Assembly: GCA_964019415.1 (NCBI GenBank)
Contig: OZ025868.1
Coordinates: 13,441,123 to 13,505,122, forward strand
From: Ianthella basta
Lineage: Eukaryota; Porifera; Demospongiae; Verongiida; Ianthellidae
DNA length: 64,000 nucleotides
Direction: 5' to 3'
A program made the position numbers and the translations under genes. This document shows, one piece after another, positions 1 to 64,000 of this stretch (position 1 is the first letter of the stretch; each line of letters starts with the position of its first letter). The notes beneath the pieces were generated by a model. The model searched no databases. It had not been told where the DNA came from and worked only from the letters and a program-made list of their open reading frames with translations.

Positions 1-303
1 AACGTGTGTGTGAGCATGTATACGAGTGTGTGCGAGTGTGTGCGAGTGTGTGTGAGTGTGTGTGTGTGTTTGTATGTGTGCATGTGGGTGTCCGTGTGGG
101 TGTGTGTTTATGGTGTGGGTGTGTACGTAATTGTGTTGCGGATGTGTTTGAATTTGTGTGTGTGTGTGCCTGTGTCTATATGCATGACAGTGTGTTATAA
201 TTACCTAATATATTTTCTGCCATTGCATTATTAAAGAACTCCACCCTGATAATTAACACAGGAGGTAACTGTTTTGTATTTCACAATCTCTTGCTTGCTT
301 TAG
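1..303 (+). other. GT-rich intron of gene 1
   Basis: This is the 3' part of an intron. Its first 180 bases are degenerate GTGTGT repeats, and it ends in a pyrimidine-rich stretch and TAG before the exon at 304. The sequence closely matches the gene 3 intron from about 15985 to 16277, where the donor is at 15962. The donor of this intron should therefore lie about 25 bases before the window. Open frames across the GT repeat are low-complexity artefacts. Confidence 0.75.
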
Positions 304-2866
304 GTTTACAATGACCTCACATGCAGTTGTGAATGTAACAGGACCATCACATGCTCACCCATGTATGCGTTTGATGAGGGAACATGCAGCTGTGAGTGTG
401 ACAGCACATTCAGCTGCCCTGAACGTCAACGGCTTGACACAACATCATGTCAATGTGTCTATGATGCTACCCGCCCCGCTGGACAGGCATACAATAGTTC
501 CACGTACCAAAGTGCATGCAATACAGAGCAACAATGCTGTGAGGGTCAAGTCTTCAGTGAGGTTTCATGTAGCTGTCAGTGTGAGAGTACACTGAACTGC
601 TCTTCTGGTTACGTATTTGACTCCAATTCCTGTCAGTGTGTGTGTGTGAAGGCTACATCTCCGAGGACGTTTGGCATGATCGATTTGATAAGTGCAGGCG
701 TGATCACCACAAGATATTTAGCATCTTCTCATGTGGATGTGAGTGCCCAAAGTACTTGAAGTGCCCAGGAAAGAAGGTTATTGACCCAAATACTTGCAGA
801 TGTGTTTGCCCCACAACTTCCTGTACCAGCCCAAAGTACTTGGACCCATACACCTGTGATTGTCAGTGCAGTAGATATCAACAGTGTGACTATGGCTACC
901 GGTGGGATTCAAATGAGTGTAGTTGTAAGTGCCAGGAGAATCTCCTGCATTGTTGGGGGAAGAAAGTTGCAGACCCCACATCATGTCAGTGTGTCTGTGG
1001 CACAAACAATACTTGCCCACCTGGCCATGGGCAGACATTCAATGAATCTACTTGTCAGTGTGAATGCAATACAACACAGCAATGCTGTGAGGGTCAAGTC
1101 TTTGATCCAAATTCCTGCAAGTGTGTTTGTGAGACTGTACAAAATTGCTCGGCAGGTTTCATTTTTGATGCAAATTTATGTGAGTGTGTATGTGAAGGTA
1201 GCACATCTGAGGAGCTCTGGTACAATCGATTTCGTGAATGTCAAAGAGATAACCAAAAGATTTTTAGCACGTTCTCATGTGGCTGTGAATGTCCATGGTA
1301 CTTAAGGTGTTCTGGGAAGAAGGTTGTTGACCCAAATACTTGCAGATGTGTGTGTCCCACATCTTCTTGTACCAGTTCAAAGTACTTAGACCCATACACT
1401 TGCGATTGTAAGTGCAGAAAAAATCACCCATGGTGTGGGTATGGCTACCAGTGGGATTCAAATGAGTGTAGTTGCAAGTGCCAGGAGAATCTCCTGCATT
1501 GTTGGGGGAAGAAAATTGCAGACCCTACTACTTGCAAATGTGTGTGCCCTGAAACGTCCTGTGTCCATCCAAAGGTGATGAACAATTACACATGCGGTTG
1601 TGAATGTGGCAACTACCAACAGTGCAGTCATGGGTACCACTGGGACAGGGATGAGTGTAGGTGCAAGTGCTGGGAGAGATCCTGCCCACATGGACACAAG
1701 TTTAACAATGTTACTTGTAAGTGTGAGAGTATGTGTCCACATGCCAACACATGGTGTCACAGGCCATACCACACCTTTGACTACGACACCTGCCAGTGCA
1801 AGTGCAGCCACACCTGCAGGGACCATGAAGTTCTGGACTCAGAGTGTAGGTGTAGGAGGAAGCAGCAACCAACCACAACCTACACCTCTCCTCAACCAAC
1901 CACAGTCTACACCTCTCCTCAACCAACCACAGTCTACACCTCTCCTCAACCAACCACAGTCTACACCTCTCCTCCAACATCACCTCCACTAAACACTGAT
2001 GTGTGCTCCAACCTGCGTTCATATTACAAGTGCATCCATTCAGGAAACACCCATGGAGTGTCCTGCAGGTACGTTTCATATCATCCACTTGCTGCTACCA
2101 CCTGTGTATGACACAGCATCAATTCAAAGTACTGAGGGTATGCAACAATAATTTTCACCATACTTATAACATGCGCAGCCTAATTATGTCTCTAGTCTAA
2201 TGCACTTCTTAATCCTTTACTATAATTATGCATTGCTTCTTCTACAATGATCTCTTCAATCTTAATTGAAATCAAAAATCATTTGCTCAGCCATAGTGCT
2301 ACGGACAAAGTTAGTATTCACCACACACGTACAATTCCTTTAGTGATGACTTTTTCATCTCTTGTTACAAGCTGACTGCTGTTTGTAGAGTCAGTGTGTA
2401 AAAGCTCATTTCTGACGGCACCACATTATACTTTAAAGTTGTACATCATTTGTAGGTCATTCCAAAGTTGTAAGTCATTCCAAAGTCCATGGACAGTAAT
2501 GGCCCAGATCATGTTTGCATGAGAGTGTCCTGCCGGTATGTTGGCCATTTAGTATACCATACAACGTTTATTATAGTTGGGTGCTATAATTATGATACAG
2601 TAGCTAATAACATGCAGCCATACAAATACACCATACTAAACATGTGCAGCCATATGTCATACCAATTAGCAAAGGACTTTGTTAGCTAATCAGTTTGTGC
2701 AATCACTACATGATGTGCTACTCCACACAGGTGGGATGGAGTGAGATGTGGACCTCGATGCTGCAAGCCAAAGTGGGCCAGACAGCGTCGCACCACCTCT
2801 TCTCGCTGCTCATGGCGCTCTGAAAGGCAATGCAGTAGCAGTTCCTATTGCATTTGGGGGTGCTAA
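304..2866 (+). CDS. Gene 1, 3' part: CXCXC-repeat secreted protein, frameshifted
   Basis: The 5' part, presumably the signal peptide, DOMON and linker, lies before the window. Two exons are visible, 304-2068 and 2731-2866, joined in phase 2. The large exon is a run of CXCXC modules (Cys, about ten residues, then CxCxC). It includes two inserted modules with a W...C...D/N-K-I-F core before SCGCEC, and ends in a Pro/Thr-rich stretch and the start of the C-terminal cysteine domain. The last exon carries CC and YC..WxC and stops at TAA 2864. Compared with gene 3, two extra bases (GT) sit in a GTGTGT run near 636-645, shifting the frame. The exon is open again from there to its end, so this could be a recent break, a polymorphism or an assembly error. 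Four Cys of the first modules are also lost, as in gene 3. Confidence 0.7.
1877..1976 (+). repeat. 27-bp coding minisatellite
   Basis: A 27-bp unit encoding about nine residues of the Ser-Pro-Gln-Pro-Thr-Thr-Val-Tyr-Thr type is repeated three to four times in the linker before the C-terminal domain of gene 1. Genes 2 and 9 have a single unit here, so the expansion is specific to this copy. Confidence 0.8.
2200..2560 (+). other. Rearranged last intron of gene 1
   Basis: Bases 2200-2430 match the 3' flank of gene 9 (about 62530-62740), which lies downstream of that gene's last exon. Bases 2480-2600 look like a decayed copy of the end of the penultimate exon plus its donor (a GTGTCCTGCCGGTATG-type stretch). 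The simplest reading is that gene 1 lost its own last exon here and now reaches one brought in by recombination at 2731. Confidence 0.5.
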
Positions 2867-3077
2867 GAAAGTTTGATTTCTCTGTATTCTGAGACTACGT
2901 TTAATATATCTCATTACTAGATAGGTGTGTAGCTGTAGTCAACTATCATACACTGATTCTATATAGCAAATGATGGTTAAGTACATATACCTTTACAGAG
3001 TGTTATGAAAGTTTGCTTTGTTGAAGAACGTGATTGCAATGTAGTGCCACTGACATCTATGATTGCATGGTACTCCC

Positions 3078-3345
3078 ATGAAGTTCTGGACTCAATACCA
3101 ACACACGGTCCCACAGGCCATACTACACCTTTGACTACGACACCTGCCAGTGCAAGTGCAGTCGCACCTGCAGGGACCATGAAGTTCTGGACTCAGAGTG
3201 TAGGTGTAGGAGGAAGCAGCAACCAACCACAACCTACACCTCTCCTCCGACATCACCTCCACTAAACATTGATGTGTGCTCCAACCTGTGTTCATATGAC
3301 TAATGCTACTACTCTGTAAGCACCCATGGAGTGTCTTGCTGGTAT
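3078..3345 (+). pseudogene. Dead copy of the C-terminal CXCXC exon
   Basis: This fragment repeats the end of the large CXCXC exon of genes 1, 2 and 9: the DxDTCQCKC region, the basic CRCRRK stretch and the Thr/Pro linker. The next segment reaches TGA where the family has an Arg-Ser-Tyr-Tyr segment. It lacks a good splice acceptor and lies downstream of the gene 1 stop. A sister copy is at 9583-9860, so it predates the 6-kb duplication. Confidence 0.7.
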
Positions 3346-4026: not shown

Positions 4027-7000
4027 ATGGCTACTGTTTTGTCAGTTCTAAGCTTGTTGAGTGCCCTTCTCTGCACATCGTTTGCTCAAGATCTTGGATT
4101 CTTGGCTAAGTTTGCCAACTTCTCTCAGCTCAATCCTTCACCATTGTATGAGCTCTACTGGAATGTAACTGGCAACAGAATCACTTTTGCAGTCCGTGTT
4201 CAGACAACTGGATGGGTAGGACTTGGGATCTCCCCCACTGGACTGATGCTGGACTCTGATGTGGTCATGGGATTTGTGCATGACACCACCAGCAAAACAA
4301 TTCTAAATGTGAGTTGTTACAGTATAATACTCATACATAGCCCACCACCAGTAATACTGTAATAATACTCATATGTAGGCCACCACTCTATGTGAAGTAC
4401 ATGATGTGTATACATACACAGCTGTTATTCTAGTTCAAACAAAGGGCTAATCACTGGAAATTTACACCAGTCCTACAACCTTTCTTCACCATAATGTCTC
4501 AGGAAGCTGGAGAGCTGGAGCCCTATTGATGGCAACCAGTGATTGCCTTCTGTTTACCCCTGATCATTCACTCATCATTTTGACATACTAATGGAAGGCA
4601 GGATGACTATACAGCAGCTCTCGTATCCACCGCCAGTGAAATACTTGTGGTTTCAATAAGAGTGAATATTAATAGGAAGTACTAATCTTTAAGACATAAG
4701 TGTGACTTGGCTTGAGATTGTTGAAAGAACAGTAGGGCACTGTAACGGACTGGCTGGGCTAGGTTGAGCTAAGGGCTAGTCACTGAATTTTTACGTACAC
4801 CTACCAACCTTGTACACTGTAGTATTTTAGGAGGCTGGGGTCTGATGCCCTATTGATAGCAATGGGTGATTGCCTATTGTTCTACTTCTTATACATTCCC
4901 CCACAGGACTGCAGGGCGGACCCCAATGTAAGACAGATGCCTACAGTTGACAAGACACAAGACTGGCAACTGGTGTCTGGAAGCCAAATTGGGGGACTGA
5001 CCACACTGGAGTTCTCTCAATACTGGGGATACAGCAGGGGACATAATCTTTGGAAAGGTATATGCATATTCCACCACTGTCATCTTCGAAATGTGATTAT
5101 GCTAATTTGATAAAGCATCATCACATAGTTTCTACTTGCAATCTCAAGCGAAAACACAAATTGGATAAATTACAATTCTTATTATGCCCAAGCATTGCTG
5201 AAAATAATTTACTTTCTGTGCCTACAATTATGAATGCCAGAAATATCTATTTAAAGAATAGTTTTATTTGTTACATTGTCCTCTATCGCAAATACAGATT
5301 GTGAATTTGACATGGTCATTCAGAACAGATGATGACACCACTCAGACACACACAAGCAGGGGAGCCCGGGTTAGCATGAATCTTATTACTCCACAGGTAT
5401 TGTGTAAATGATTTGTGTACATGATAGTCCTGATTAGCAATACTCTGAATGTGCATGTTAAGTACGTTATGTGTGCTCACAGCGTTCATGTCGAGAGCAG
5501 CAAACACATGCATGCAATTGTCATTGCATTTCACACATCAACAGAATTGCTAATGAATTACTGTAACTCAGCTGGACAGAATCTCAATACTATACAGCTT
5601 GCACATGTACTATACTGTCTTGTGAATCAGTTGCTTCTTGCTCAGTTGGAAAGATATTCAGTAAATCAACTTGCAAGTGTGAATGTGAAGTGGACTTTTA
5701 TTATGCTGTGATGGCCAAGACTTTGACGCAGCTTCCTTCAGCTGTTGGTGTAAATTATTGTCTAACTGGTTACACTGATTCTGCCAGTGCATTCGACTTT
5801 GAGAAAGTTGGAAAGATAACAAGAAAGCGTTCAACATCGTCTCTTGTGGTTGCGAATGTCACAGCTACATTCATTGTAAAAGGAAGAAGGTTGTTGAACC
5901 AAGTACCTGCAAATGTGCATGCCCTCAACCTATTCCTAGCAGCACAATAGCGAGTACTTTATGCACTGACACATCATGATCATCAGCTGCAGTGCATCTA
6001 TGTTTCAACACAAGCTGTTATTATATTACTGTAAATGAGGTTCTTTTCTAGAGCAGCTATAGAAAATACTTGCCCACTCCATCCTCAAATGTATGTAACA
6101 ATATGTGTTATTGTGCAAGAGTAATGAATGTGAAAGTAAAATTATCAATGTGCTTGCACTACATACTGAACCAGTTCATGCTTTTTCTATTAAAATTGGT
6201 AAGACTTAGTCCTGTTCTACTACTACACTCCTAGTCTCATACCCAGACCCCATTCGTCTGCCAGCCATTTAATTGTGAGGTCATGTGGCTTTGTCGCCTC
6301 CCAATGACGTGATAATATATAAATGGAGGTGAGAAAGTGGTCTGGTTAAGAGACTACTACACTCAGGGTTATGTCGCAAATTGAGTGCGAAACTTGGGAG
6401 GGCATTTGGCAATCAAAGAAATTATTTTTTATACATTTTAATGATTATAGGTAATATCACGTGTATGCTTCCCAACGTTGTGTGTGGAGGATAACCATGC
6501 AGTTTGTATATATGGGTACAATGCATAGAGACGGTGCACTACATATAGTAACGTATACGTCTGTAAACAGGACCAACAAGTTTTACCTAGATAATGTATT
6601 TGCATTAATGTACCAATACTCTTAATAAATACAGTTGTTTATAGTTGTTCTGTATTCTAATTATGAAATTCTACATTATTTAGTTAATTACGTATGCCAT
6701 TATTGCTTGCTAAATCTTTTCACTCCATGTACGTACATCATTTGAACTTGCTTGAGCTAGTAACTTTTACTCTCATTTGTGCACAGGCTACACCTTCTTC
6801 TGTTGCCACACCCATTACCCTCCTTCCTGTTACGGCCTCCACGCTTGGTATAATGTCAACACTCACATCTAAGTCACCCACACCTGTTACAACATTATCC
6901 GCACCTGCTACAAAAATGCCAATATAGGCTTGAAATTGAAATGTACAGTAATCTCTTTCTATAATTATATGATAACTACTATATAAGCTTGCAGAACCTT

Positions 7001-9378
7001 AACTTTGATCTTGATCACACATTGGTACACCGGTTGTGTCTTGTCGACGCATTGCCAAGAGGTCTTCGGACTTAGCCTTCTTCCATCATGGCTGTCTTTG
7101 GACGTGGCCCACTTCCAACGGCCTAGCTGTGTTTACGCTTAAGAACTTCTTCCTGCAACCACATATGAAGCTCTTTTCATTGTGCATCTGTGAACCTTGT
7201 CCTGTCTCTATTCAAATTTCTCTTTGAATTGTATTAATGTAGGCTACATCTGCAACTTCTGCTACAACAACCACACCTGGCACAACCACAGGCCCAACAT
7301 CAGACCTGCTGGTAACAACACCTTCATTGACAGATCCAACAACAGACACAATGGCTACCGATCCAACAACAGATCCAATAACAGCTTTTCCAACAAATCA
7401 AACAACAGATCGAACAACAGATCCCACAACAAAAATACCAACATCCCCACCTGGTGCAACTAGCGCAACTAATCCAACACTCACACCCGCTGCAACAGGT
7501 CCCCCAACCACAGCCACACCAACTGAATGTACACTTATTTGTGATCTTCCAAGGATGCTGAACACGGAAACCTGCACATGTGAATGCCCCATACCAATTC
7601 AGCCATGTCCATTTGAATTAGATGAATCCTGCCTTTGCACCTGTCCAATGGGATTACAAGAAGAATGTGCTAATAGGACAATTGTTGCTAATCCAAGGCT
7701 TTTCAATCCATTCACATGCAAATGCACTTGCATTCCCCAAATTTGTGCAGAGGACGAAAAATTCAACACTGAACCAGACATTTGCAGGTGTGAGCAACTT
7801 CCTCCTTGCTCTGAAGTCACCAATACCACTTGTCCTCCTGGCCTGGAGTTCAGCCTTAGGACTTGCAACTGTACAAAGCCCTGTAAAATCACTTGTGATC
7901 TGCCACAGGTGGTCGATTTTTACACTTGCACTTGTCAGTGCCAGCCCAGCACAATTTTACAGTCTAACTGTTCAGCTCCACAGACGTTTAGCAGTGACAT
8001 TTGCACTTGTGACTGCCCGCCCGATCTTGTGGTGGAATGCCCACCAAACCAGGTACTGTACTGTGTGCATGTGAGGATGGTCCCATGTGTGTGAGTGTAC
8101 ATATTCATTACTAAATAGTTAGCATTGAGTATTACTGTTTTAATATGTAATTAAATACCACAAAATGTATGCATCGGTGTTATATTATTCTATTTGTCAA
8201 AACATCGATTATAGTTTCCACATAGCCACTCTTTCTCTGTTTGTAGGAATACGACAGCGCTTCATGTAGCTGTCAGTGTAATGGCCCACTCTCCTGCCCA
8301 CCCATGTACACGTTTGATGAGGGAACATGCAGCTGTGAGTGCCCGAAGTACTTGAAGTGCACAGGAAAGAAGATTATCGACCCTAATACTTGCAGATGTG
8401 TTTGCCCCACAACTTCCTGTACCAGTCCAAAGTACTTAGACCCATACACCTGTGATTGTCAGTGCCGTAGATATCAACAGTGTGACTATGGCTACCAGTG
8501 GGATTCAAATGAGTGTAGGTGCAAGTGCCAAGAGAATCTCCTGCATTGTTGGGGGAAGAAAATTGCAGACCTTACTACTTGCAGATGTGTGTGCCCTGAA
8601 ACATCCTGTGTCCATCCAAAGGTAATGAACAGTTACACCTGTGCTTGTGAGTGTGGCAACTACCAACAGTGCAGTCATGGGTATCAGTGGGATAGTGATG
8701 AGTGTAGGTGCAAGTGCCAGGAGAGACCCTGCCCACATGGACACAAGTTCAACAAAGTTACTTGTAGGTGTGAGAGTATGTGTCCACATGCCAACACACG
8801 GTGTCACAGGCTATACGCCTTTGACTACAACACCTGCCAGTGCAAGTGCAGCCGCACCTGCAGGGACCATGAAGTTCTGGACTCAGAGTGTAGGTGTAGG
8901 AGGAAGCAGCAACCAACCACAACCTACACCTCTCCTCCAACATCACCTCCACTAAACACTGATGTGTGCTCCAATCTGCGTTCATATTACAAGTGCATCC
9001 ATTCTGCAAGCACCCATGGAGTGTCCTGCAGGTATGGTGGCCTTTAGTATACCATACAATGTTTAATATTGTTAGGTGCTACATGATACAGATCCTTTCA
9101 AGTTGCTGATAACTTGCAGCCATACATATTCATCATATATTATCATACCAAACATGTGCAGCCATATGTCATACCAATTAGCAAAGGGCTTTGTTAGCTA
9201 ATCAGTTTGTGCAATCACTACATGATGTACTACTCCACACAGATGGGATGGAGTGAGATGTGGACCTCGATGCTGCAAGCCAAAGTGGGCCAGACAGCGT
9301 CGCACCACCTCTTCTTACTGCTCATGGCGCTCTGAAAGGCAATGCAGCAGCAGTCCCTATTGCATTTGGGGGTGCTAA
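4027..9378 (+). CDS. Gene 2: DOMON + Thr-rich linker + CXCXC protein, one frameshift
   Basis: Exons supported by splice sites and paralogy are 4027-4308, 4907-5057, 5298-5396, 7243-8052, 8247-9031 and 9243-9378. Exon 1 encodes a signal peptide ending SFAQ and the first half of a DOMON domain ([28 protein letters not shown]). Exons 2 and 3 complete it (QDWQLVSGSQ; WSFRTDDDTT...SRGAR). Exon 4 has a Thr-rich linker, then CXCXC modules. Exon 5 is a fusion of two exons that are separate in gene 3. Exon 6 ends the C-terminal cysteine domain. Exon 2 is 151 nt where intact paralogues have 159: eight bases are missing before 'CAATACTGG', which shifts the frame inside the DOMON. The product would otherwise be about 756 aa. 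Splicing from 5396 to 7243 (both phase 0) skips two dead exons. Probably a recent pseudogene or an assembly error. Confidence 0.65.
5500..5950 (+). pseudogene. Vestigial CXCXC exon inside gene 2
   Basis: Aligned with the better copy at 25508 in pseudogene 4, this segment keeps the outline of a CXCXC exon: the CSAGQ...FNTT region, the FGKIF region and the motif before SCGCEC. It has point mutations that remove Cys residues, plus small indels and stops. It should be skipped in splicing. Confidence 0.65.
6231..6354. mobile_element. 124-bp MITE-like element, copy 1
   Basis: The ends are imperfect inverted repeats (TAGTCTCATACCCAGACC against GGTCTGGTTAAGAGAC). The element is flanked by a perfect 10-bp direct repeat TACTACACTC at 6221-6230 and 6355-6364, which may be a target-site duplication. 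A TGACGT motif sits in the centre. The second copy at 12980-13105 is in the equivalent intron of gene 3, so the insertion predates the duplication. Confidence 0.6.
6788..6927 (+). pseudogene. Vestigial Thr/Pro-rich exon
   Basis: After an acceptor-like TGTGCACAG at 6787, a Thr/Pro/Ser-rich frame runs to an in-frame TAG near 6925 with no donor. It resembles the linker exon starts of gene 7 (44754) and pseudogene 4 (27262). The gene 3 copy at 14339 carries a 1-nt deletion. It is a dead extra linker exon. Confidence 0.55.
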
Positions 9379-13500: not shown

Positions 13501-16500
13501 ACACAGTGTAATTCCTAAAATATTATTAGTCACATTGGCATGCACCGACGCCAACAGGAAATGACATTCTTTTGGCGGAATAAAATACTATACGTTGTTA
13601 AGGGCTGCAAGAGTGGTCACAAATGGCATCTTGGCCTGCCAAAACAAAAAGAAAGTGCGCTATTCGGCTGCAGGGCAACTAGGTGACCGGCACCCCTCTA
13701 AGCTTGTGTCCCCCTCCCCCCATTTCCTTAACTGACATGGCGCGCATCAAGTCCGCCAATGACCGGTAGTGGAAGGGCCAGTCGATAATTGTAAAAATGG
13801 CGTGTCGGCCCGCAGAGTACGGATGAAGGACATCTCGCTTTTCGGCCGCAAGGCTGCTAGGCGAATGGCACTCCTCTAAGAGCCTGGCCCCCGAGTCCTT
13901 CAATTAGCATGGAGCGTCTCGAGCCGATTCCCTGCAAGGCATCGATTTTATGAGGTAACAAACAAACATAAAATCCGAGATTTGGTGCATTATAGTAAGA
14001 TTAAAGGTAATATCATGTGTATGCTTCCCAATGCTGTGTGTGGAGGATAACCATGCATTTTGTATAGGTACTATGCACAGAGTGGTGCACTACCTATAGT
14101 AATGTATACGTCTGTAAACAGAACCAACATGTTGTACCTAGAGAATGTAACTATATTGCATTAATGTACCAATACTCTTTGTAAATACAGTTGTTTATAG
14201 TTGTTCTGTATTCTAATGATGAAATTCTACATTATTAAGTTAATAATGTATACCATTTTTGCTCGCTAAATGTTTTCACTTCATGAACATCATTCGAACT
14301 TGCTTGAGCTAGTGACTTTTACTCTCATCTGTGCACAGGCTACACCTCTTCTGTTACCACACCCATTACCCTCCTTCCTGTTACGACCTCCACGCTTGGT
14401 ATAATGTCAACACTCACGTCTAAGTCACCCACACCTGTTACAACATCATCCACATCCACACCTGCTGCAATAATGTCACTATAAGCTTGAAATTGAAGTG
14501 TTCAGTAATCTCTTTCTATATAATTATGATAAATACTATATAGGCTTGTGGAACCTAAAATTTGACCTTGGTCGCACGGTCACACATTGGTACACCGGTT
14601 GTGTCTTGTTAACGCGTTGCCAAGAGGTCTTCAGACTTAGCTTTTTTCAATCATGGCTGTCTTCGGACGTGGCCCACTTCCAACGGCCTAGCTGTGTTTA
14701 CGCTTAAGAATTTCTTCCTGCAACCACATATGAAGCTCTTTTCATTGTTCATCTGTGAACCCTGTCCTGTCTCTACTCACATTTCTCTTTGAATTGTATT
14801 AATGTAGGCTACATCTGCAACTTCTGCTACAACAACCACACCTGGCACAACCACAGGCCCAACATCAGGCCATCGAACAACAGATCCCACAACAAAAACA
14901 CCGACATCCCCACCTGGTGCAACTAGCGCAACTAATCCAACACTCACACCCACTGCAACAGATCCCCCAACCACAGCCACACTAACTGAATGTACACTTA
15001 CTTGTGATCTTCCAAGGATGCTGAACACGGAAACCTGCACATGTGAATGCCCCATACCAATTCAGCCATGTCCATTTGAATTAGATGAATCCTGCCTTTG
15101 CACCTGTCCAATGGGATTACGAGAAGAATGTGCTAATAGGACAATTATTGTTAATCCAAGGCTTTTCAATCCATTCAAATGCGAATGCACTTGCATTCCC
15201 CACATTTGTGCAGAGGACGAAAAATTCAACACTGAACCAGACATTTGCAGGTGTGAGCAACTACCTCCTTGCTCTGAAGTCACCAATACCACTTGTCCTC
15301 CTGGCCTGGAGTTCAGCCTTAGGACTTGCAACTGCACAGTGCCCTGTGATATCACTTGTGATCTGCCACAGGTGGTTGATTTTAATGCTTGCACGTGTCA
15401 GTGCCAGCCCAGCACAATTTTACAAGCTAACTGTTCAGCTCCACAGACGTTTAACAGTGACATTTGCGCTTGTGACTGCCCGCCCGATCTTGTGGTGGAT
15501 TGCCCACCAAACCAGGTACTGTACTGTGTGCATGTGAGGATGGTCCCATGTGTGTGAGTGTACATATCCATTACTAAATAGCTAGCATTGAGTATTACTG
15601 TTTTAATATGTAATTAAATACCACAAAATGTATGCATCGGTGTTATGTTATTCTTTTTGTCAAAACATAGAATATAGTTTTCACATAGCTACTCTTTCTC
15701 TATTTGTAGGAATACGACAGCGCTTCATGTAGCTGTCGGTGTAATGGCAAACTCATCTGCTCATTCATGTACACATATGATGATGGAACATGCAGCTGTG
15801 TGTGTGACAGCTCATTCAGCTGTCCAACTGGACAGCGGCTAGACACGGCATCATGTGAGTGCGTATGTGGTAATACTTGCCAACCTCCGCAAGTCTTAAA
15901 CAATGCTACCTGCTCGTGTGGATGCCCACCAGATCTTGTTAGAAAATGTTCCGCAAACCAGGTTTGTTTGAATGCGCGTGTGTGAACGTGTGTGTGAGTA
16001 TGTATACAAGTGTGTGCGAGTGTGTGTGAGTGTGTGTGTGTGTTTGTATGTGTGCGTGTGGGTGTGCGTGTGGGTGTGTGTTTATGGTATGGGTGTGTAC
16101 ATAATTGTGTTGCGGATGTGTTTGAATTTGTGTGTGTGTGTGCCTGTGTCTATATGCATGACAGTGTGTTATAATTGCTTAATATTTTTTCTGCCATTGC
16201 ATTATTATAGAACTCCACCCTGATAATTACCACAGGAGGTAACTGTTTTGTATTTCACAATCTCCTTCTTGCTTTAGGTTTACAATGACCTCACATGCAG
16301 TTGTGAATGTGACAGGACCATCACATGCCCACCCATGTACACATATGATGAGGGCACATGCAGCTGTGTGTGTGACAGCACATTCAGCTGCCCTGAACGT
16401 CAATGGCTTGACACAACATCATGTCAATGTGTCTATGATGCTACCCGCCCCGCTGGACAGACATACAATAGTTCCACGTACCGAAGTGCATGCAATACAG

Positions 16501-18423
16501 AGCAACAATGCTGTGAGGGTCAAGTCTTCAGTGAGGTTTCATGTAGCTGTCGGTGTGAGAGTACACTGAACTGCTCTTCTGGTTACGTATTTGACTCCAC
16601 TTCCTGTCAGTGTGTATGTGAAGGCCGCATCTCCGAGGACGTTTGGCATGATCGATTTGATAAATGCAAGCGTGATCACCACAAGATATTTAGCATCTTC
16701 TCATGCGGCTGTGAGTGCCCGAAGTACTTGAAGTGCCCAGGAAAGAAGATTATCGACCCAGATACCTGCAGATGTGTTTGCCCCACAACTTCCTGTACCA
16801 GCCCAAAGTACTTGGACCCATACACCTGTGATTGTCAGTGCAGTAGATATCAACAGTGTGACTATGGCCACCAGTGGGATTCAAATGAGTGTAGGTGCAA
16901 GTGCCAGGAGAATCTCCTGCATTGTTGGGGGAATAAAGTTGCAGACCCCACATCATGTCAGTGTGTCTGTGATGCAAACATTACTTGCCCACCTGGGCAG
17001 ACATTGAATGAATCTTCTTGCCAGTGTGAATGCAATACAATACAGCAATGCTGTGAGGGTCAAGTCTTTGCTCCAAATTCCTGCAAGTGTGTTTGTGAGA
17101 CTGTACAAAATTGCTCGGCAGGTTTCATTTTCGATGCAAATTTATGTGAGTGTGTATGTGAAGGTAGCATATCTGAGGAGATCTGGTACAATCGATTTCG
17201 TGAATGTCAGAGAGATAACAATAAGATTTTTAGCATCTTCTCATGTGGCTGTGAATGCCCAAGGTACTTAAAGTGTCCTGGGAAGAAGGTTGTTGACCCA
17301 GATACTTGCAGATGTGTGTGCCCGTCATCTTCCTGTGCCAGTTCAAAGGTCATGAACAGACACACTTGTGATTGTCAGTGCAGTAACTACCAATGGTGCA
17401 GGCATGGATACCAGTGGGACAGGGATGAGTGTAAATGCAAGTGCCAGGAGAGGACATGCTGGGGAAAGAAGATTTTCGACCGAAACACATGTAGTTGTGT
17501 GTGCCCAGTATCTTCCTGCGCCAGTCCAAAGGTCATGGACAAATACTCTTGTGACTGTCGTTGTAGCAGCTACCAATGGTGCAGGCATGGGTACCAGTGG
17601 GACAGGGATGAGTGTAAATGCAAGTGCCAGGAGAAGTCCTGCCACCAAGGATACAAGTTCAACAATGCTTCCTGTACCTGTGAGAAAATGTGTCCAAGTT
17701 TCAGGACGAGACCTCAATGCCATGGAAACTCCACCTTTGACTATTACACCTGCCAGTGTGAATGCAGGCAGACCTGCAAGGCCAACGAGGTTCTAGATTC
17801 ACAGTACTGTCAGTGCAAGAGGAAGCCAGTTGCTCCATCACCAACTACACCTAACACTACCTCGCCAACATCACCTTCTTCACGCAACAGCTATGTTTGT
17901 CCCCGACTGCCTAGTGTGCATTGGTGCAGATTATCTCAAAGCTTCTACAGAGCATCATGTCGGTGAGTTCCAGTCCATAAACTCCAGTACATATATGTAG
18001 TTATAATGTTAATATTATATTGCAATGATATTAGATACAGCCTTCTTCTTATATAAGCAAAGTACGTGAAGTTTTGCATCATAGACATTTCCAATGTATT
18101 CTTATGGTAACTTCACCTTTCAGTTTTTACGTGTACTACATATCTGCAATGTCTTTTTTCAGATCTTTGCCTTTCGAATGATCATACGTATAGACATTCA
18201 AAGTGTTTAGCTTGTGCTGACAATGATACAGATCCTCACTGCACTTGCATGTAGGTGGGAAGGAGGAAGATGCCTTCCAGCAGGAACAGCAGGAACAGTA
18301 GGAACAGATGTTGTGTGCTGCAAGTCAAAATGGACTCGACAGTGGAGTGCCACTTCTTCCTACTGTTCAAGGCTCTCTGAAAGCTTCTGTAATAACAGTT
18401 ACTATTGTAGCTGGCAGTGCTGA
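10552..18423 (+). CDS. Gene 3: complete DOMON + Thr-rich + CXCXC secreted protein (1117 aa)
   Basis: Exons 10552-10833, 11275-11433, 11678-11776, 14808-15515, 15710-15961, 16278-17962 and 18255-18423 join into one open frame of 1117 residues. All introns are phase 0 except the last (phase 2). Order: signal peptide (to about residue 21, ending LFAQ); DOMON over exons 1-3 (GWVGLGIS, QDWQLVSGSQ, WSFRTDDDTT, SRGAR); Thr-rich linker with GPTS/DPTT; a first CXCXC set with TCPPGLEFSLRTCNC; then the long 561-codon exon with two W...Cx[14 protein letters not shown] modules and two 61-aa cassettes; a Pro/Thr hinge; and the C-terminal cysteine domain (YVCPRLP...CRW...CC...YCSWQC). The long exon is a mosaic: like gene 1 up to about 17310, like gene 7 after. 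Several CXC cysteines near 16430-16500 are lost. Predicted secreted; function unknown. Confidence 0.85.
11940..12509 (+). pseudogene. Vestigial CXCXC exon interrupted by a promoter fragment
   Basis: This is the gene 3 counterpart of the dead exon at 5500-5950. Bases 12256-12412 (about 157 bp) are foreign to it. They match the sequence just upstream of pseudogene 4 and its start (24255-24415), including the ATGGCTACTGTTTTG start. The inserted ATG at 12381 runs in frame into the remaining exon and stops at 12509, giving a 42-residue frame that joins half a signal peptide to one CXCXC remnant (STCKCACP). Confidence 0.7.
12980..13105. mobile_element. MITE-like element, copy 2
   Basis: Paralogue of 6231-6354, with TAGTCTCGTACCCAGACC at one end and GTCTAGTTATGAGAC at the other. 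It contains a full TGACGTCA palindrome where copy 1 has TGACGTGA. The flanking direct repeat has diverged (TACTATACTC against TACAACACTC). Confidence 0.55.
13199..13997. mobile_element. About 800-bp GC-rich insertion in a gene 3 intron
   Basis: The equivalent gene 2 intron (near 6450) lacks this segment; flanking sequence is continuous on both sides. It opens with a hairpin (AAGCCCGCC AAA GGCGGGCTT core, 13201-13231). It contains two diverged tandem repeats of about 150 bp (about 13618-13770 and 13794-13930, each with a CGGC-GCA core and a CACTCCTCTAAG / CACCCCTCTAAG block). No coding capacity is seen. It looks like a non-autonomous element of unknown class. Confidence 0.5.
14339..14485 (+). 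pseudogene. Vestigial Thr/Pro-rich exon (unit 2)
   Basis: Copy of 6788-6927 after the acceptor-like GTGCACAG. A 1-nt loss near its start shifts the frame and there is no donor, so gene 3 should skip it. Confidence 0.5.
17332..17697 (+). repeat. 183-bp CXCXC cassettes, two copies
   Basis: Units start at 17332 and 17515 (CCTGTGCCAG / CCTGCGCCAG). Each encodes 61 residues with the [30 protein letters not shown] and CWGKKIFDRNTCSCVC pattern. The same unit is repeated four times in gene 7. Confidence 0.85.
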
Positions 18424-54989: not shown

Positions 54990-57061
54990 TCTGCATTGAC
55001 TTGTGTCTTTGAGCTACACAAAAGGAAACGATGCAGTTGGATTCATTATACTGTGACAGTGTGACAACAGAAACATTTGCTTGCTTTATAGTTTATTATA
55101 AGTTTTTTAATACTGTAGACATTGACTATTGGCTACGACATTCTGTGAACTTCCAAATTAAAACGTGTATCACCTATTGTTTGCAGCTCATTATTTTTAA
55201 GCTAAAACATTTCTACTGCAGTACATGTGAGTGCCACAATACTGTTCACTTATATATTATACACTTGAGACACTTACATTCTTTGTCAGTCACAAATGGG
55301 CACACAGCAAGGCCAGTGACGCTAAAACTGTTTGTTGCCAGAGTTGCAGCATTCCTTCTTTTATACCAACCCTACCCGTTGGAACCGTATTCAGCGTTTG
55401 CTGATTGATTCTGGGCAAGATTTCAATCCAAGTGCACTATAGCTTCTGCGATCTAAAGCAAGTGTACATTTACCCTAAAGAACAATAGTAAAACATGACA
55501 TTGTTAACATTGGCAACATATGAAAATATAGTACCTAGAATTAAATTGCAATAATCAAATTATTGAATCATTGGAGATTTAAATATTATTAATAATTGCA
55601 ATTCTGGTGTCACTGTACGATATCTCTTCCGCACTCATTTTCACCTTGCTGGCCATGCAATCACAGCAGTAGATTCAGCAACAATGCACACCTGCCACTC
55701 TCTAACTATTCTTCTTCTATAACTGTTCTTCACGCAGCAATTAACTCTGTAGTTAGCACACTCTAACTATGTTTACATTGGTGCCGTGTATTCAGGTTCA
55801 CTTCACAGACAGCACACCTTAACAAATGGCAAACTGCACCTTCTATACGCAAGGCTCGCCCTACACATATGTACATCTAGACAGGTGTGTGGCGTCACAC
55901 CCAGATTGCTGGCTACGTAATTCCTGGGTGAATGTATTCAGTGAGTTTGAAACAACTGCCCTATGTTTATACATACAAGCCATACAACAGCAAACATATC
56001 ACGCACGCCATCATGCTTCTTTGCGTACAGATGTTTATGGCATCCAAATAATGATGTGACAACTGATTGAATAGTCAATATAGCTTATAACAAAATTCAC
56101 ATTAGCTAGCTATACACTATATATAGATGTCAATATTGATGAAGTGAAAGACTGCAGGTGAGCCCTATTGTATTAGACTGTTTGGGTGAAGTGATGCATT
56201 GCCATTGTATACCACCCACAATGTCCCATTCAGCCCCAAACAATGGTCACAATGGCTTGTGTCTTTGTACCAGGATACAGCCGGCTACATAAATGTTACT
56301 GTCATAGGCATATGAAGACAATTCACGTAGGTCAGCTGGGATGTGAATCTGGTGTTATTGTCACAAAATGTATTATACTAGTGAGATGTGGAGCTATCTC
56401 CACTCTAGTGTCACTGCCGCACACTGGCAGCTGAATCTGCCTTTGCTTCTGGACCAAGTTGGGCCAACATTATCCGTGTTCTGCAATTCCATCAGTCAGA
56501 ATCAGCTTCAACATTGAGAGTAAGTATATACAACCATTTATATGCGGCTATCGCTTGTGTTAGACTGCAATATATAATAATGATTGTACGTTCTTATTTG
56601 AATGAGAGTTCATTGTATATAGGCACAAATAGGCCTGTGTGGCGCCCGGTTGTAACAATACAGTTATAACTAGGTATATAGCAGCACTAACTAGCAATAC
56701 TATAGCTATAGGTATGTAGTCCTCTCAGAAGTCACTAGCCAAAGAGTTGGTTCTTTACCTAACGTGTCGGCAGTTCATTGCATGGCCACCACATATTACA
56801 GTGAGTGATTGAAGATGTGTGATTTCCCTATCCCTAGGCAACAGCAAGATGATTGATATACTCATGAATGTAGCTGAGTCAGAGTTTGGAGACAATGGAG
56901 AGGAAGCAGTACAACTTTGTTTGTAATACACCCAAAGCCATACCAATACAAACACTGTAAGTACCGCACGGTCTAGGCTTCTCCAGAGTGCTACATATAC
57001 TCATTACACCACAAACAGATGGGGCATTCATTGAATGCAGTCTTAGAGCTGAGGTACCACC
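54990..57061. other. 2-kb intergenic region
   Basis: No gene was recognised. It should hold the divergent promoters of the galectin-like gene (left) and gene 9 (right). A weak ACATATAC about 69 bp before the gene 9 ATG is the only TATA candidate. Confidence 0.45.
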
Positions 57062-58236
57062 ATGCTGCGGGTGTCGGCACTATTGAGTATCGTCCTGTGC
57101 TCTTCACTAGCCCAAGACTCCAGCATTTTGGCCAGGCTCAACAGTTTCTCTCTGCTGAATCCCTCTCCATTGTATGAACTGTACTGGAATGTAACTGGCA
57201 ACATGATTACGTTTGCAGTTCGTGTTCAGACAAATGGATGGGTGGGGTTTGGAATCTCCCCCGATGGGTTGATGCCGGACTCTGATGTAGTCATGGGGTT
57301 TGTGGATGACACCACTGGAGCAGTGACTTTCACAGTGAGTATCATGGTCAAGCCACAGTTGCTTACATTTTCTGAATGGTTCCTTGCAATGAAAATTCCT
57401 TCTCCTCTCTGTATCAAGTCTCTGGGACTGCATATTTAACTTATCTACTTCAACACGTCACATACAGATAGAGTCTTCAAGACGTTATCCTGCAGCCTTA
57501 GATATATTTGTGTTCTATGTGAAGCTATCATTTATAATGTATATTGCTGAGCTAGTGCATGCAGTCATGCTGTCATGTTGCTTGCATGCACATGACTTGT
57601 GTGCCAAGTGCAATTGTGTATGCATGATATTGCACACTTGACTGATCTTGTTCGTCATGTCACTCCAATTAGAACAATGTCATATATTCACAACAATCAT
57701 GAAAATATTAATGTATTCAACCACCCATTTTGTATATGTTTTGCAAAATTGTACATCTATTGCAGGAATAAATATTTAACTGACTGTTGTTGGATCATTT
57801 GGACTATATTCATGTGTGTTTCTAGTTTGAACTGAAATGACATCTCATAATAGTTACTAAGCCACATTCTACTGATATTCATCACTGTACAGTCATATTT
57901 CATGTTTTTATTTATATTTAACCACTTTCTTGATTCTGTTACAGTGATGAGGTTTTAAAGACTTCTGTCTCTACTTGCAAGCATAAACTATCATGTATTC
58001 TTTGCTCTACAGGACCGCAGGACGAATCCTTCTATCAGACAGGAGCCAACGATTGATGCCCAACAAGATTGGTCTCTTGTGTCTGGAAGCCAGTCTGCTG
58101 GATTCACCATACTGGAGTTCTCCAGGTTCCTTGACACTGGGGATACCACAGGAGATCGGGTCATTGAAGAGGTACAGGAATGTATATATTATGCTGCTGC
58201 ATGACGGGCGTGAACGACAACTGTTACTGACAGCAT

Positions 58237-58289
<53 letters not shown>

Positions 58290-60380
58290 CAAGCACACAC
58301 AAAGCACAGACCTGCTTGAGTTAAACTGCAGGGTAGTTTAATAACTATTCTAGTGCCATTCACTGAGAGTACTGCTTGGTTTAGCCCTAGACAGTCCTAA
58401 CATGTCTAATGCTCAGATGTGTTTTCCCACAGCTTGTGAATATAATATGGTCTTTCCGAACGGATGACAACACTAATGCAGCACACACTACAAGGGGAGC
58501 CCAAACTCGTATGACGCTACTTCCACCAGTGAGCTAAGCAATTTGTTGCATTGGTCACCATGTACATAACTTCATTCTCACTATATACATACATAGTATA
58601 TTTCTTTGCATGTAGAGTGATTGTGAAAGGTATACACTATACACTATACACTATTTCCATACATTTGTTCACTTTCGGCTCATCTACATATTGACTGACT
58701 GTGTACTCGTCCCTACACTAGCTGAATGCAGTTGGCATGCAAAGTATCATTGCTTCTCATGAGATGTGCATAATCTTCAGTCGTAGAATCTTTTCAAAGA
58801 CCCTCTATGCAGTAGTACCAGAAGTCATTCAGTTCCTGATGAATTGCAGAATATGAAGCTCTGTTTATTGTTCATCTGTGAACCTTGTCTAATCTCTACT
58901 TGAATTTCTTTTTGAATTGTAATAATGTAGGCTACATCTGCAACGTCTGCTACAACAACCACACCTGGCACAACCACAGGCCCAACATCAGACCTGCTGG
59001 TAACAACACCTCCACCAACAGATCCAACAACAGTTCCAACAACAGTTCCAACAACAGTTCCAACAACAGATCCGACAACAGATCCGACGACAGATCCGAC
59101 AACAGATCCAGCAACAGTCCCAACAACAGATCCGACAACAGATCCGACGACAGATCCAACAACAGATCCAACAACAGATCCGACAACAGATCCAACAACA
59201 GATCCAACAACAGTTCCAACAACAGATCCAACAACAGATCCAACAACAGATCCAACAACAGATCCAACAACAGATCCGACAACAGATCCAACAACAGAAA
59301 CACCAACACCTCCACCAGGAGCAAATACCACAACTAATCCAACGCTCACACCCGCTGCTACAGATCCCCCTACCACACCCTCAGTAGCTGAATGCACACT
59401 CGTCTGTGATCTTCCAAGACTGCTGAACAGAGACAACTGCACATGCGATTGCCCCACACCAATTCAACCTTGCCCTTTTGGGTTGGATGATTCCTGTTTT
59501 TGCAACTGTCCACCAGGATCACTAGAAGCTTGTCAGAATAGAACAATTGTTGGTAATCAAAGGTTTTTCAATGCATTCACATGTGAATGCCTTTGCATTG
59601 AGCAATTTTGCCAAGAGAATGAAGAATTCAACATTGATCCAGATGTCTGCAGATGCGAGCAACTTCCTCCTTGTGCTGAAGTCACCAATACCACTTGTCC
59701 TCCTGGCCTGGAGTTCAGCCTTAGGACTTGCAACTGCACAGTGCCCTGTGAAATCACTTGTGATCTGCCACAGGTGGTCGATTTTAACACTTGCACATGT
59801 CAGTGCCAGCGAAGCTCAATTCCACCATCTGAAAAGTGCCCACCTCCACTGATGTTCAGTAGTGACACTTGCTTTTGTGAATGCCCTCCAGAGCTTGTGG
59901 TGGACTGCCCAGAGAACCAGGTACAGTACTGCTTACATTCATGTACACACATACATGACTGTATGAGTGCAATGCACTTTAATACCATAACGATGTAGTG
60001 ATACAGTATAAGCATATATTGTAAGAACTTAACTCGTAAAATAGATGCATCACATTGCAATAATCACAGTCTTGATGTACTCCACCTCTCTACTTCCCTA
60101 TTATATCTCTCTTGAAGGTGTATGACAACTTTACATGTAGCTGTCGATGTAATAATCCACTAACCTGCCCATCCATGTACACGTTTGATGACAGCACCTG
60201 TGACTGTGAATGTGACAGCTCATTCAGCTGCCCAACTGGTCGACGGTTAGATACAGCGTCTTGTGAATGTGTTTGCAATGCTTCCTGCCAAACTCCACAA
60301 GTGCAAAATAGCACTAACTGCTTGTGTGAATGCCCTCCAGATCGAGTGGAAGAGTGTCCTACAAACCAGGTGTGTGTATG

Positions 60381-60451
<71 letters not shown>

Positions 60452-62165
60452 GTGTGTGCCATGTGCCGTGTCTGTGTGTGTTGTGTGTATGGGTGTGTGC
60501 ATGTATGCATGTGTTCCTGGGTATGAGTCTCTGGGTGTGTTCACAAGTTCATGTTCAAGAATGCTAAACTGCTTTTCTGCTGGAAATAAATGAGTCTCTG
60601 CCAAAATCACAGCCATATATATCTTTTTCAGGTTTACAATGACCTCACATGCAGTTGTGAATGTGACACGACCGTCACATGCCCACCCATGTTTACATAT
60701 GATGAGGGAACATGCAGCTGTGTGTGCGACAGCTCATTCAGCTGTCCTGAACGTCAACGGCTTGACACAGCATCATGTCAATGTGTCTGTGAATCTCCAA
60801 CTACCTGCCCCACTGGACAGACATACGATAGCTCTACCTGCCGGTGTGAATGCAATACAGAGCAACAATGTTGTGAGGGGCAGGTCTTTGATGAGAGTTC
60901 ATGTAGCTGTCGGTGTGAGAGCACACTGAGCTGCTCTTCTGGTTACGTATTTGACTCCAAATCGTGTCGATGTGTATGTGAAGGCAGCATATCAGAAGAT
61001 GTCTGGAATGATCAATTTGAAGCATGCAAGCGTGATCACCACAAGCTATTTAGTATCTTCTCATGTGGTTGTGAGTGCCCAAAGTACTTGAAGTGCCCAG
61101 GAAAGAAGATTATTGATCCAAATACTTGCAGATGTGTTTGCCCCACAACTTCCTGTACCAGCCCAAAGTACTTGGACCCATACACCTGTGATTGTCAGTG
61201 CAGTAGATATCAACAGTGTGACTATGGCTACCAGTGGGATTCAAACGAGTGTAGGTGCAAGTGCCAGGAGAATCTCCTGCATTGTTGGGGGAAGAAGATT
61301 GCAGACCTTACTACTTGCAGATGTGTGTGCCCTGAAACGTCCTGTGTCCATCCAAAGGTGATGAACAATTACACTTGCGGTTGTGAGTGTGGCAACTACC
61401 AACAGTGCAGTCATGGGTACCACTGGGATAGTGATGAGTGTAGGTGCAAGTGCTGGGAGAGACCCTGCCCACATGGACACAAGTTTAACAAAGTTACTTG
61501 TAAGTGTGAGAGTATGTGTCCACATGCCAACACACGGTGTCACAGGCCATACTACACCTTTGACTATGACACCTGCCAGTGCAAGTGCAGCCGCACCTGC
61601 AGGGACCATGAAGTTCTGGACTCAGAGTGTAGGTGTAGGAGGAAGCAGCAACCAACCACAACCTACACCTCTCCTCCAACATCACCATCTCCACTTAACA
61701 CTGATGTGTGCTCGAACCTGCGTTCATATTACGATTGCTACTATTCTGCAAGCACCCATGGAGTGTCCTGCCGGTATGTTCCATATACTGTAATTATATC
61801 ACACAATAATGTGTATGACACCTCTTCCATTAATTAAGACGCTGATTATGACATGCAACCAGTTCATGTATGTATAAACCAAACTCTTACCATGTGCAGC
61901 CTATAATCACACTAATATTGGTATGACATTAGTATTATGGACTTGTTAGTCCTTAGTTCATGCATTTATTACATATATTCTGATGACAACATTTGAAGTG
62001 TGCCATTACTAAACTGATTCCCTGTGCAGATGGGATGGAGTGAGATGTGGTCCTAAATGCTGTACTGCAAAAGGAACCAGAAGGCGTCGCACCACCTCCT
62101 GGTACTGTTCATGGCTCTCTGAAAGCTACTGCAGAAGCAGTCCTTATTGCAATTGGGAATGCTGA
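57062..62165 (+). CDS. Gene 9: complete DOMON + PTTD mucin linker + CXCXC protein (1015 aa)
   Basis: Exons 57062-57334, 58013-58171, 58433-58528, 58931-59920, 60118-60369, 60632-61773 and 62030-62165 join into one open frame. Signal peptide (ending SSLAQ), DOMON ([53 protein letters not shown]). Exon 4 has a linker of about 23 four-residue PTTD/PTTV units, then CXCXC modules with the family-wide NTTCPPGLEFSLRTCNC. Exon 5 adds four modules. Exon 6 has all CXC cysteines that genes 1 and 3 have lost near TCRCECN, one SEDVWNDQFEACKRDHHKLF module and the YLDPYTCDCQC cassettes. The C-terminal domain is the gene 1/2 type (CSNLRSYYDC...CRW...CC...YCNWEC). Likely the least damaged copy of the first subfamily. 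Confidence 0.9.
58238..58301. repeat. (CA)n microsatellite in gene 9 intron 2
   Basis: A CA run with AGC/ACGC interruptions at its end, lying inside the intron between DOMON exons 2 and 3. Confidence 0.9.
59021..59298 (+). repeat. 12-bp coding minisatellite (PTTD)n
   Basis: About 23 units of GATCCAACAACA or a close variant encode Asp-Pro-Thr-Thr (sometimes Val-Pro-Thr-Thr). Genes 2 and 3 have only a few such units. A densely O-glycosylated rod is likely. Confidence 0.9.
60370..60451. repeat. (GT)n run at the 5' end of gene 9 intron 5
   Basis: The GT repeat begins right at the donor (ACCAG|GTGTGTGTATG) and continues for about 80 bp. Genes 1, 3 and 7 have GT-rich sequence at the same position of the same intron. 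Confidence 0.85.
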
Positions 62166-63747: not shown

Positions 63748-63756
63748 TATATATAT
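63748..63756 (+). promoter_or_regulatory. TATA box of gene 10
   Basis: TATATATGG lies 75 bp before the ATG at 63823, at the place aligned with the gene 8 TATA box, followed by the shared CCTGGGAGGAATCTAACTGG leader. Confidence 0.5.
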
Positions 63757-63822
63757 GGTGACCAACCAGCTGCAGAGAGAGTGAGCTCTTCCGACATCCT
63801 GGGAGGAATCTAACTGGACACT

Positions 63823-64000
63823 ATGTTCCCCACATTGGTACTGTTCACCTTCTTACTCTGCTCTTCATTAGCTCAAGATCCCAACCTCTCGGCCAGGTAC
63901 CGCAGTTTCTTCTTGCTCAATCAATCTCCACTGTACGAACTGTACTGGACCGTAAATGGCACAAGAGTTTTCTGTGCAGTGCGTGTTGAGACAACTGGCT
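63823..64000 (+). CDS. Gene 10: DOMON protein, 5' end only
   Basis: The first 59 codons are present: the signal peptide MFPTLVLFTFLLCSSLAQ, then a DOMON start with LYELYWTVNG and CAVRVETTG, cut by the window end. It differs from gene 8 exon 1 by only a few residues and shares its 5' region, so a membrane-anchored product like gene 8 is likely but not visible. The unusual Cys in VFCAVRV is shared by genes 8 and 10 only. Confidence 0.8.
   Translation, partial: MFPTLVLFTFLLCSSLAQDPNLSARYRSFFLLNQSPLYELYWTVNGTRVFCAVRVETTG

Follow-up and report, generated by a model that had tools for sequence, protein, structure and literature searches.

We find that the 64,000-nucleotide stretch analysed here (the window) lies in a tandem array of genes that are predicted to encode proteins headed by a DOMON cassette of monooxygenase type, behind which stand a rod rich in Ser, Thr and Pro (S/T/P), in most members CXCXC repeats, and a Cys-rich C-terminal domain. 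On balance we lean towards a family of extracellular glycoproteins, secreted into mucus or matrix and carrying a ligand-binding head, perhaps for haem or metal. Most of the proteins would be secreted and their rods O-glycosylated, the DOMON head would bind haem, a metal, or a sugar as its small ligand, and the Cys-rich part would crosslink the proteins or anchor them in mucus or matrix. A role in mucus or matrix, put forward in the preliminary description, can fairly be inferred.

One strand carries the whole array, and its loci combine a predicted signal peptide with a three-exon DOMON, in agreement with what had been described. Sixteen DOMON loci fall within the 134 kb read, several of them broken, and the array continues past the window to about window coordinate 99600. 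The earlier count of ten loci stands insofar as first DOMON exons begin at nine places inside the window (4072, 10561, 24394, 29252, 34574, 41968, 49682, 57062, and 63823, of which that at 24394 is interrupted and that at 63823 is cut off by the window end) and the DOMON of gene 1 lies upstream (−2799 to −1784), leaving only its CXCXC end inside; but genes 1, 2, 4, and 6 are not intact.

Eight spliced models (genes 3, 5, 7, 9, and 13–16), 342–1117 residues long and with GT..AG borders, are free of stops and run from the DOMON through the rod and the CXCXC repeats (lacking in gene 5) to a C-terminal Cys domain in two parts. The exons of these predicted genes were joined on the basis of open frames, order, and splice sites. 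All coordinates below refer to the plus strand. Gene 3 (10552–18423; 1117 residues, stop-free) has exons at 10552–10833, 11275–11433, 11678–11776 (followed by a donor GT at 11777), 14808–15515, 15710–15961, 16278–17962, and 18255–18423. Gene 7 (41968–47971; 1002 residues) has exons at 41968–42240, 42726–42884, 43197–43295, 44754–45554, 45718–45780, 46069–47522, and 47812–47971. Gene 9 (57062–62165; 1015 residues) comprises DOMON exons at 57062–57334, 58013–58171, and 58433–58528, rod plus CX1 block at 58931–59920, an exon at 60118–60369, CXCXC repeats at 60632–61773, and a C-terminal exon at 62030–62165. Gene 5 (29252–31516; 342 residues), which had been described as bearing a rod only, closes instead with the same Cys-rich C-terminal domain, split over two exons, that is seen in the other genes of secreted type: signal peptide and DOMON occupy 29252–29524, 29929–30087, and 30250–30348, the rod and first C-terminal half 30625–30992 (with alternative in-frame acceptors for the rod start between 30604 and 30652), and the second C-terminal exon 31387–31516.

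Several other loci are not intact. What the window holds of gene 1 (1–2866) is its 3′ part, with CXCXC exons, one of them bearing a +2 (GT)n frameshift near 640, and a C-terminal exon at 2731–2866. Gene 2 (4051–9378) has a first DOMON exon, a second that is not intact, and no detectable third, followed by degenerate CXCXC pieces (about 5567–5976), an open rod plus CX1 exon (7243–8052), CXCXC repeats (8247–9031), and a C-terminal exon (9243–9378). Gene 4 (24394–27456) has a stop in DOMON exon 1, CXCXC pieces from 25508 to 26850, and a rod from 27262 that meets an early stop in CX1. Gene 6 (34574–37717) has DOMON exons at 34574–34858, 35194–35352, and 35807–35902, a rod with short CXCXC part at 36627–37390, and a last exon from about 37580 within which the frame changes. 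Gene 10 begins inside the window with its first DOMON exon (63823–64000, cut by the window end); outside, its DOMON is open, but its rod exon meets a stop shortly past the onset of a CX1-like part, and no membrane part is seen, at odds with the earlier suggestion that this gene might be of membrane type. Beyond the window, the DOMON frames of genes 11 and 12 are broken.

We regard it as extremely unlikely that our models fuse two kinds of neighbouring gene, one with the DOMON and one with the rod and CXCXC parts. The introns between DOMON and rod are long (about 3 kb in gene 3), degenerate CXCXC pieces lie between the two parts in genes 2 and 3, and the rod and CXCXC exons of gene 2 are open despite the broken DOMON upstream, all of which would fit separate genes; yet rod exons start at an AG acceptor, and genes 3, 5, 7, 9, and 13–16 all show the order DOMON, rod, Cys part, C-terminal domain, with phases that agree. 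Nor did a start or signal-peptide exon of the rod parts' own come to notice in passing.

The three DOMON exons are in phase 0 and, when spliced, give a complete DOMON domain (PF03351, E 2.6e-27), so the DOMON loci are not a product of chance. The match is complete in all four spliced models scanned (genes 5, 8, 9, and 14), at 71.9–91.8 bits against a cut-off of 32.7, and the spliced DOMON of gene 9 alone is likewise a full match. For the DOMON, the sole PDB match at E ≤ 10 is dopamine beta-hydroxylase (DBH; 4zel, E 4.8e-11). The first DOMON intron falls in the same alignment column in the array as in MOXD/DBH-like genes, the second within one residue of the corresponding position, and both are in phase 0 in both groups. 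The intron-matched MOXD-like genes sit 5 Mb from the array on the same contig (C1, 8.06–8.19 Mb), among MOXD/DBH-like copies at 8.06–8.80 Mb of C1 and on C4. The copper type II monooxygenase domains (PF03712 and PF01082) are absent from the four models scanned, and a genome-wide scan with PF03712 places this domain at 19 sites, 17 of them at 8.10–8.80 Mb of C1 and none in the array. By sequence and intron positions, then, the DOMON cassette is of the MOXD/DBH type, and the matching introns together with the lack of a copper domain in the array suggest that the family kept the monooxygenase DOMON while the enzyme part was replaced. In a tree of DOMONs, 12 from the array (of the 16 loci, genes 2, 4, 11, and 12 being excluded for broken frames, as also for dN/dS) form one group apart from six MOXD-like DOMONs (support 99/98), the latter being five of the ten copies seen in the examined C1 stretch plus the C4 gene. 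The MOXD/DBH type of the cassette, with its matching introns, and the two-part C-terminal Cys domain had both escaped the preliminary description.

Several residues of the head are strongly conserved. Met53 and five Asp columns are invariant across 11 aligned DOMONs, and the Met is present in 18 of 18 (12 from the array and six MOXD-like). The last DOMON exon contains a His in all 18, and an RG motif comes after it in every one but gene 5 (17 of 18); this His does not occupy an invariant column, its position shifting in gene 5 and differing between the array and the enzymes. The meaning of Met and Asp was matched by eye to passages of PMC4846438 and PMC10691727. The Met stands five residues past a Ser, the spacing of the CYBDOM motif SXDXXMGXD given in PMC10691727, and M90 and H174 of HYP1 are described as proposed ligands in PMC10784544. 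The head appears to keep the metal-site aspartates of DBH together with a Met/His pair of the haem-ligating kind found in cellobiose dehydrogenase and proposed for CYBDOM proteins. On this evidence the proteins might be secreted b-type cytochromes or haem/iron binders, in which Met and His would bind haem for iron capture or redox and the rod and Cys parts would anchor them in mucus or matrix. We consider this unlikely: the MOXD-like genes of the same genome have the same pair, which may therefore be a legacy with no particular function here, the His column moves, and the DOMON of human DBH is reported to lack typical haem ligands (PMC4846438).

Behind the head lies the tandem-repeat rod, which is short in gene 14. 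The CXCXC repeats reported earlier are confirmed by PF03128, whose E values run from 3e-16 to 7e-18 for three long exons, the short one of gene 6 giving 0.0014; among the four models scanned, genes 9 and 14 exceed the cut-off, and genes 5 and 8 give no match, as expected. Genome-wide, where scores were computed for 150 of 178 candidates, 35 of 47 PF03128 matches fall inside the array. For gene 9, PF03128 scores 20.8 bits when the entire model is scanned and 61 bits with the long CXCXC exon by itself, both above the cut-off of 15; a PDB search with that exon gave no match at E ≤ 0.1. The array also holds all eight genome matches to CX1 and 18 of the 21 to the two-exon C-terminal Cys domain, the other three having E above 1, so that clear matches to the latter appear confined to the array (of 13 rows given by the scan for the C-terminal exon, the two at 5808 and 11952 are CXCXC fragments and were dropped). 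In the final exon the residue preceding the W is variable. Neither the C-terminal Cys domain nor the CX1 block has a Pfam match, and both may therefore be undescribed domains. The predicted structure of CX1 (mean pLDDT 39.6) is too poor for use. A CX1 search of a genome contig collection (89 pattern matches, none confirmed) and a comparison of the DOMON alignment with a viral contig collection (34 pattern matches, none confirmed) say little about relatives, since neither collection is meant for animal genomes.

Such proteins could also belong to a skeletal organic matrix, associated with spongin or spicules, instead of mucus. A point in favour of this is that a Balbiani ring silk protein contains CXCXC repeats. 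The proteome determined for the skeleton of the sponge Vaceletia lists a DOMON protein (PMC4633127), but that entry names the DOMON only, and we rate this placement as quite improbable.

Modules have moved between neighbouring genes. In three gene pairs, dS is 0.87–1.07 for the DOMON and 0.06–0.12 for CX1; the module trees conflict with each other; and the CXCXC exon of gene 3 is itself a hybrid that switches near 16947. Because of these three lines of evidence, which uphold the claim of interchangeable modules, we conclude from sequence comparison that rod and CXCXC parts are copied or exchanged among members separately from the DOMON. Among six genes compared, DOMONs are 54–70% identical, whereas CX1 reaches 92–95% in 3 of 15 pairs. 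Diverged heads on homogenised stalks, the turnover of the array, and the NPxY motifs in the tail of gene 8 would fit a recognition system, as had been proposed, in which a single head (for self/non-self, symbiont, or microbe) is deployed both in secreted form and on the membrane. We hold this to be improbable: the gene-wide dN/dS of the DOMON has a median of 0.32 and a maximum of 0.49 (66 pairs), the putative ligand residues Met and Asp are invariant, and a single membrane member was found. By this gene-wide measure the DOMON seems to be under constraint overall, with no sign of a fast-diversifying recognition head.

That membrane member is gene 8 (49682–52771), for which a transmembrane segment and signalling tail had been proposed; in place of the Cys parts it indeed shows a hydrophobic exon followed by a tail in which NPxY occurs twice. 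Its DOMON exons lie at 49682–49954, 50198–50365, and 50863–50958, its rod starts at 51358, the transmembrane exon starts at 52010 or later and ends at 52172 (donor GTAAGT), and the tail exon (52608–52771) carries NPSY and NPAY, with a second tail copy near 53583–53753. Within the array, transmembrane and tail matches are limited to gene 8, which is thus, as judged from predicted exons, the sole membrane-type member found; of the claim that one ectodomain occurs in secreted and membrane forms, the membrane form holds, but for one gene only. As a tether or receptor, the product would display the DOMON head on the outside of the cell. The tail resembles three other loci on C1, and weak EGF-like matches, below Pfam cut-offs, lie near the tail relatives in three of four pieces.

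Returning to the favoured reading of secreted mucus or matrix proteins, the array offers an example, in an apparent sponge, of how an accessory domain of an enzyme could come to head a whole new family of extracellular proteins once the enzyme part is lost and exons are shuffled; the evidence for this route lies in the intron phases and in synonymous divergence. The array proteins are candidate components of sponge mucus or matrix, whose genes, to our knowledge, have been little described, and because Met, His, and Asp are conserved, haem or metal binding would be simple to test. A more speculative extension, to which we give a very low probability, is that a copper-monooxygenase DOMON became the head of a secreted haem-binding mucin-like family in which heads that have diverged but keep their binding sites are joined by recombination to homogenised stalks, and one head is connected to a signalling tail, for mucus-borne sensing or capture of microbes or of their haem or iron.

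CXCXC repeats are also carried by the C-terminal part of VEGF-C/D and by Balbiani ring proteins, which thus have PF03128 repeats in common with the array; unlike VEGF-C/D, the four models scanned contain no VEGF domain. Gel-forming mucins share the S/T/P-rich tandem-repeat rod, but the von Willebrand D and cystine-knot domains have no Pfam match in these models. CYBDOM proteins (PMC10691727, PMC10784544) are described with a Met/His pair in the DOMON, as in the array, whereas no cytochrome b561 domain occurs in the four models. The coral protein B5 is likewise an animal extracellular DOMON protein and a predicted type I transmembrane protein, for which the accessible text of PMC3204972 mentions neither CXCXC repeats nor a rod. 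A literature search of open-licence PMC articles, within their accessible text, found no described family with the DOMON-rod-CXCXC architecture. The plan of Acanthamoeba MBP1, as described in PMC9692275, is similar, with a ligand-binding head, CXCXC repeats, a transmembrane segment, and an NPLF tail, but the head is DUF4114, not DOMON, and CXCXC and transmembrane parts lie on one chain. Short DBH-like proteins 1 and 3 of the sponge Halisarca dujardini (PMC12665527) also combine a signal peptide with a DOMON lacking catalytic domains, but reportedly end after it, with rod and CXCXC unmentioned in the accessible text. Unlike MOXD/DBH proteins, the array has a rod, CXCXC repeats, and a C-terminal domain without Pfam match, and no copper monooxygenase domain was found in it; with those of its own genome and with human DBH (4zel) it shares the N-terminal DOMON and the conserved Asp, and with the former also the introns.

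Adding both flanks of the window, which spans C1:13441123-13505122, to give 134 kb (in window coordinates, negative upstream and >64000 downstream), we identified 16 DOMON loci by tblastn with DOMON exons as query, all on one strand. Introns of the array DOMONs have GT..AG borders and phase 0; the spliced gene 9 DOMON is complete (PF03351 4-121 of 124, E 2.6e-27), and a complete DOMON was found in all four spliced gene models scanned against Pfam. A search of the genome (209.09 Mb, 96 contigs) with the first exon of gene 13 gives 18 hits at E<=1e-12, of which 15 lie in the array, 2 in MOXD-like genes (DBH-type copper monooxygenase genes) near 8.07 Mb on contig C1, and 1 on C4. PF03351 itself matches 157 times genome-wide (150 candidates scored), and further DOMON arrays lie at C2:2.32-2.47 Mb, on C12 and C14, and at C19:4.78-4.87 Mb; other tandem genes, at C9:5306873-5325304 (L002, L003, L007, and L008), encode an S/T/P-rich stretch followed by a C-terminal DOMON in a single open frame. 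Within the array itself we also find a galectin-like gene on the opposite strand (window 54480-55013 (-); PF00337, E 5.5e-13) and, directly behind gene 3, a non-LTR retroelement in which both an endonuclease and a reverse transcriptase are matched (window ~18735-22500 (-)), beyond which lies an array-type C-terminal exon match (window 22778-22927). The mitochondrial contig (21,233 bp) has nine TGA within its cox1 match, and its open frames include atp9, recognized by eye, among nad, cox, and atp genes; among animals, mitochondrial atp9 is a mark of demosponges and homoscleromorphs. Taken with the galectin-like gene, these features suggest that the source is a sponge, probably a demosponge.

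Eight genes, four inside the window (3, 5, 7, and 9) and four past it (13-16), are stop-free to a common end, the spliced models of genes 3 and 13 each needing a correction of one codon at one exon end. The last CXCXC (PF03128) or rod (S/T/P-rich, mucin-like) exon is closed by a phase-2 donor, its GT present in 12 of 12 examined, and the final exon opens by completing this split codon, followed by a Trp. There are 11 such final exons in the 134 kb, 6 of them in the window (two further rows of the scan were false and were excluded); gene 6 has a final exon in which the frame changes. Joined, the C-terminal domain consists of two Cys-rich halves, and gene 5, earlier described as rod only, also ends in it, so that description does not hold. 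Of the domain's 21 genome matches, 18 fall within the array, and the 3 outside it have E>1; two examples of the domain were compared with Pfam, and neither matched. In several genes an RxRR-like basic stretch, a possible furin site, stands between the halves (window 62030-62165 and other C-terminal exons). The block that follows the rod (CX1, 177 aa) is without a Pfam match, and all eight of its genome matches are in the array. Short tandem repeats differ among the rods of genes 5, 6, 7, and 9, a 12-base repeat unit is common to genes 2 and 9, and the rod of gene 14 is short. Other members are broken: gene 1 by a +2 GT-repeat shift inside its CXCXC exon, gene 4 by a stop, gene 6 by its frame change in the final exon, genes 10 and 11 by rod exons that stop early, and genes 11 and 12 by a frame-shifted first exon, while in gene 2 the second DOMON exon is not good and the third is not detectable.

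That these modules are interchangeable, as first proposed, is supported by the contrast between DOMON and CX1 divergence, by conflicting trees, and by a hybrid exon. In the pairs g1/g3, g1/g13, and g3/g13, DOMON dS is 0.87-1.07 vs. a CX1 dS of 0.06-0.12; CX1 dS is 0.38-1.14 in the remaining 12 of 15 pairs. The CX1 tree groups g13 with g1, g2, g3, and g12 (96/92), in conflict with the DOMON tree, which places g1 and g3 together and g13 apart (95/91). Tracts of 90-95% identical DNA connect rod and CXCXC exons and introns across different genes (e.g., -1410..1845 vs. 14578..17805, 91.7%; 8334..9036 vs. 61070..61778, 94.2%). Because the low divergence includes introns, the low CX1 dS reflects recombination or segmental copying, not a common constraint on the protein. 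The CXCXC exon of gene 3 is 90% identical to gene 9 up to 16947, and past this point 89-92% identical to gene 7 and just 74% to gene 9; gene 1 matches gene 3 over both parts, so the join either predates the gene 1/gene 3 split or was copied along.

In gene 8, the membrane member, a GTAAGT donor joins a hydrophobic exon in matching phase to the exon for the tail. Three further C1 loci carry relatives of the tail (E 5e-11, 4e-8, and 4e-7); for all other TM or tail matches beyond the array, E is at least 0.001. EGF-like Cys repeats, below Pfam cut-offs, lie near two of these three relatives, a matter of neighborhood that does not imply the same gene. From these matches, the tail was likely gained by exon shuffling from a receptor family like the C1 relatives. 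A diverged second copy of the cytoplasmic tail exon is present at window 53583-53753.

The array DOMONs resemble those of monooxygenases. Both DOMON introns are in phase 0, as in six MOXD-like copies (C1 8.06-8.19 Mb, where 10 copies were seen; the second exon of one was not placed); in the alignment the first intron shares its column with theirs, and the second lies no more than one residue away. Against the PDB, DBH (4zel) is the only match at E<=10 (E 4.8e-11). Twelve array DOMONs stand apart from six MOXD-like DOMONs in a midpoint-rooted tree with a long C4 row (support 99/98), and none of the 19 genome matches to PF03712 is in the array (17 on C1 8.10-8.80 Mb, 1 on C4, 1 on C17). Two MOXD-like copies 8 kb apart (C1:8065544 and C1:8073551) are identical at the protein level in DOMON exons 1 and 3. 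Invariant DOMON columns include Met53 and Asp 57, 74, 88, 92, and 117; judged by eye, these Asp positions coincide with aspartates of the putative metal site in DBH. His occurs in 18 of 18 DOMON sequences, but not in one shared column. According to two reports, haem in cellobiose dehydrogenase is ligated by a Met/His pair, with the same proposed for CYBDOM proteins (PMC10691727, PMC10784544), and human DBH is described, in a third, as without typical haem ligands (PMC4846438).

We infer that the array proteins may be secreted, glycosylated, crosslinked, and ligand binding. A recognition role, raised in the preliminary description, is conceivable, but the single test that could be applied argues against a rapidly diverging head: dN/dS across 66 array DOMON pairs has a median of 0.32 and a maximum of 0.49 (Nei-Gojobori, own script), individual values being rough at a median dS of 0.90. 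A mucus/matrix role is our best guess, because the intact nonmembrane models unite rod and Cys-rich parts. Among the open-licence PMC papers listed for the DOMON domain combined with sponge, mucin, or CXCXC, and for gene expansions in sponges, no description of this architecture turned up. The one paper containing both CXCXC and "DOMON", the latter as an author's name, describes Acanthamoeba MBP1, an adhesin of similar plan (PMC9692275).
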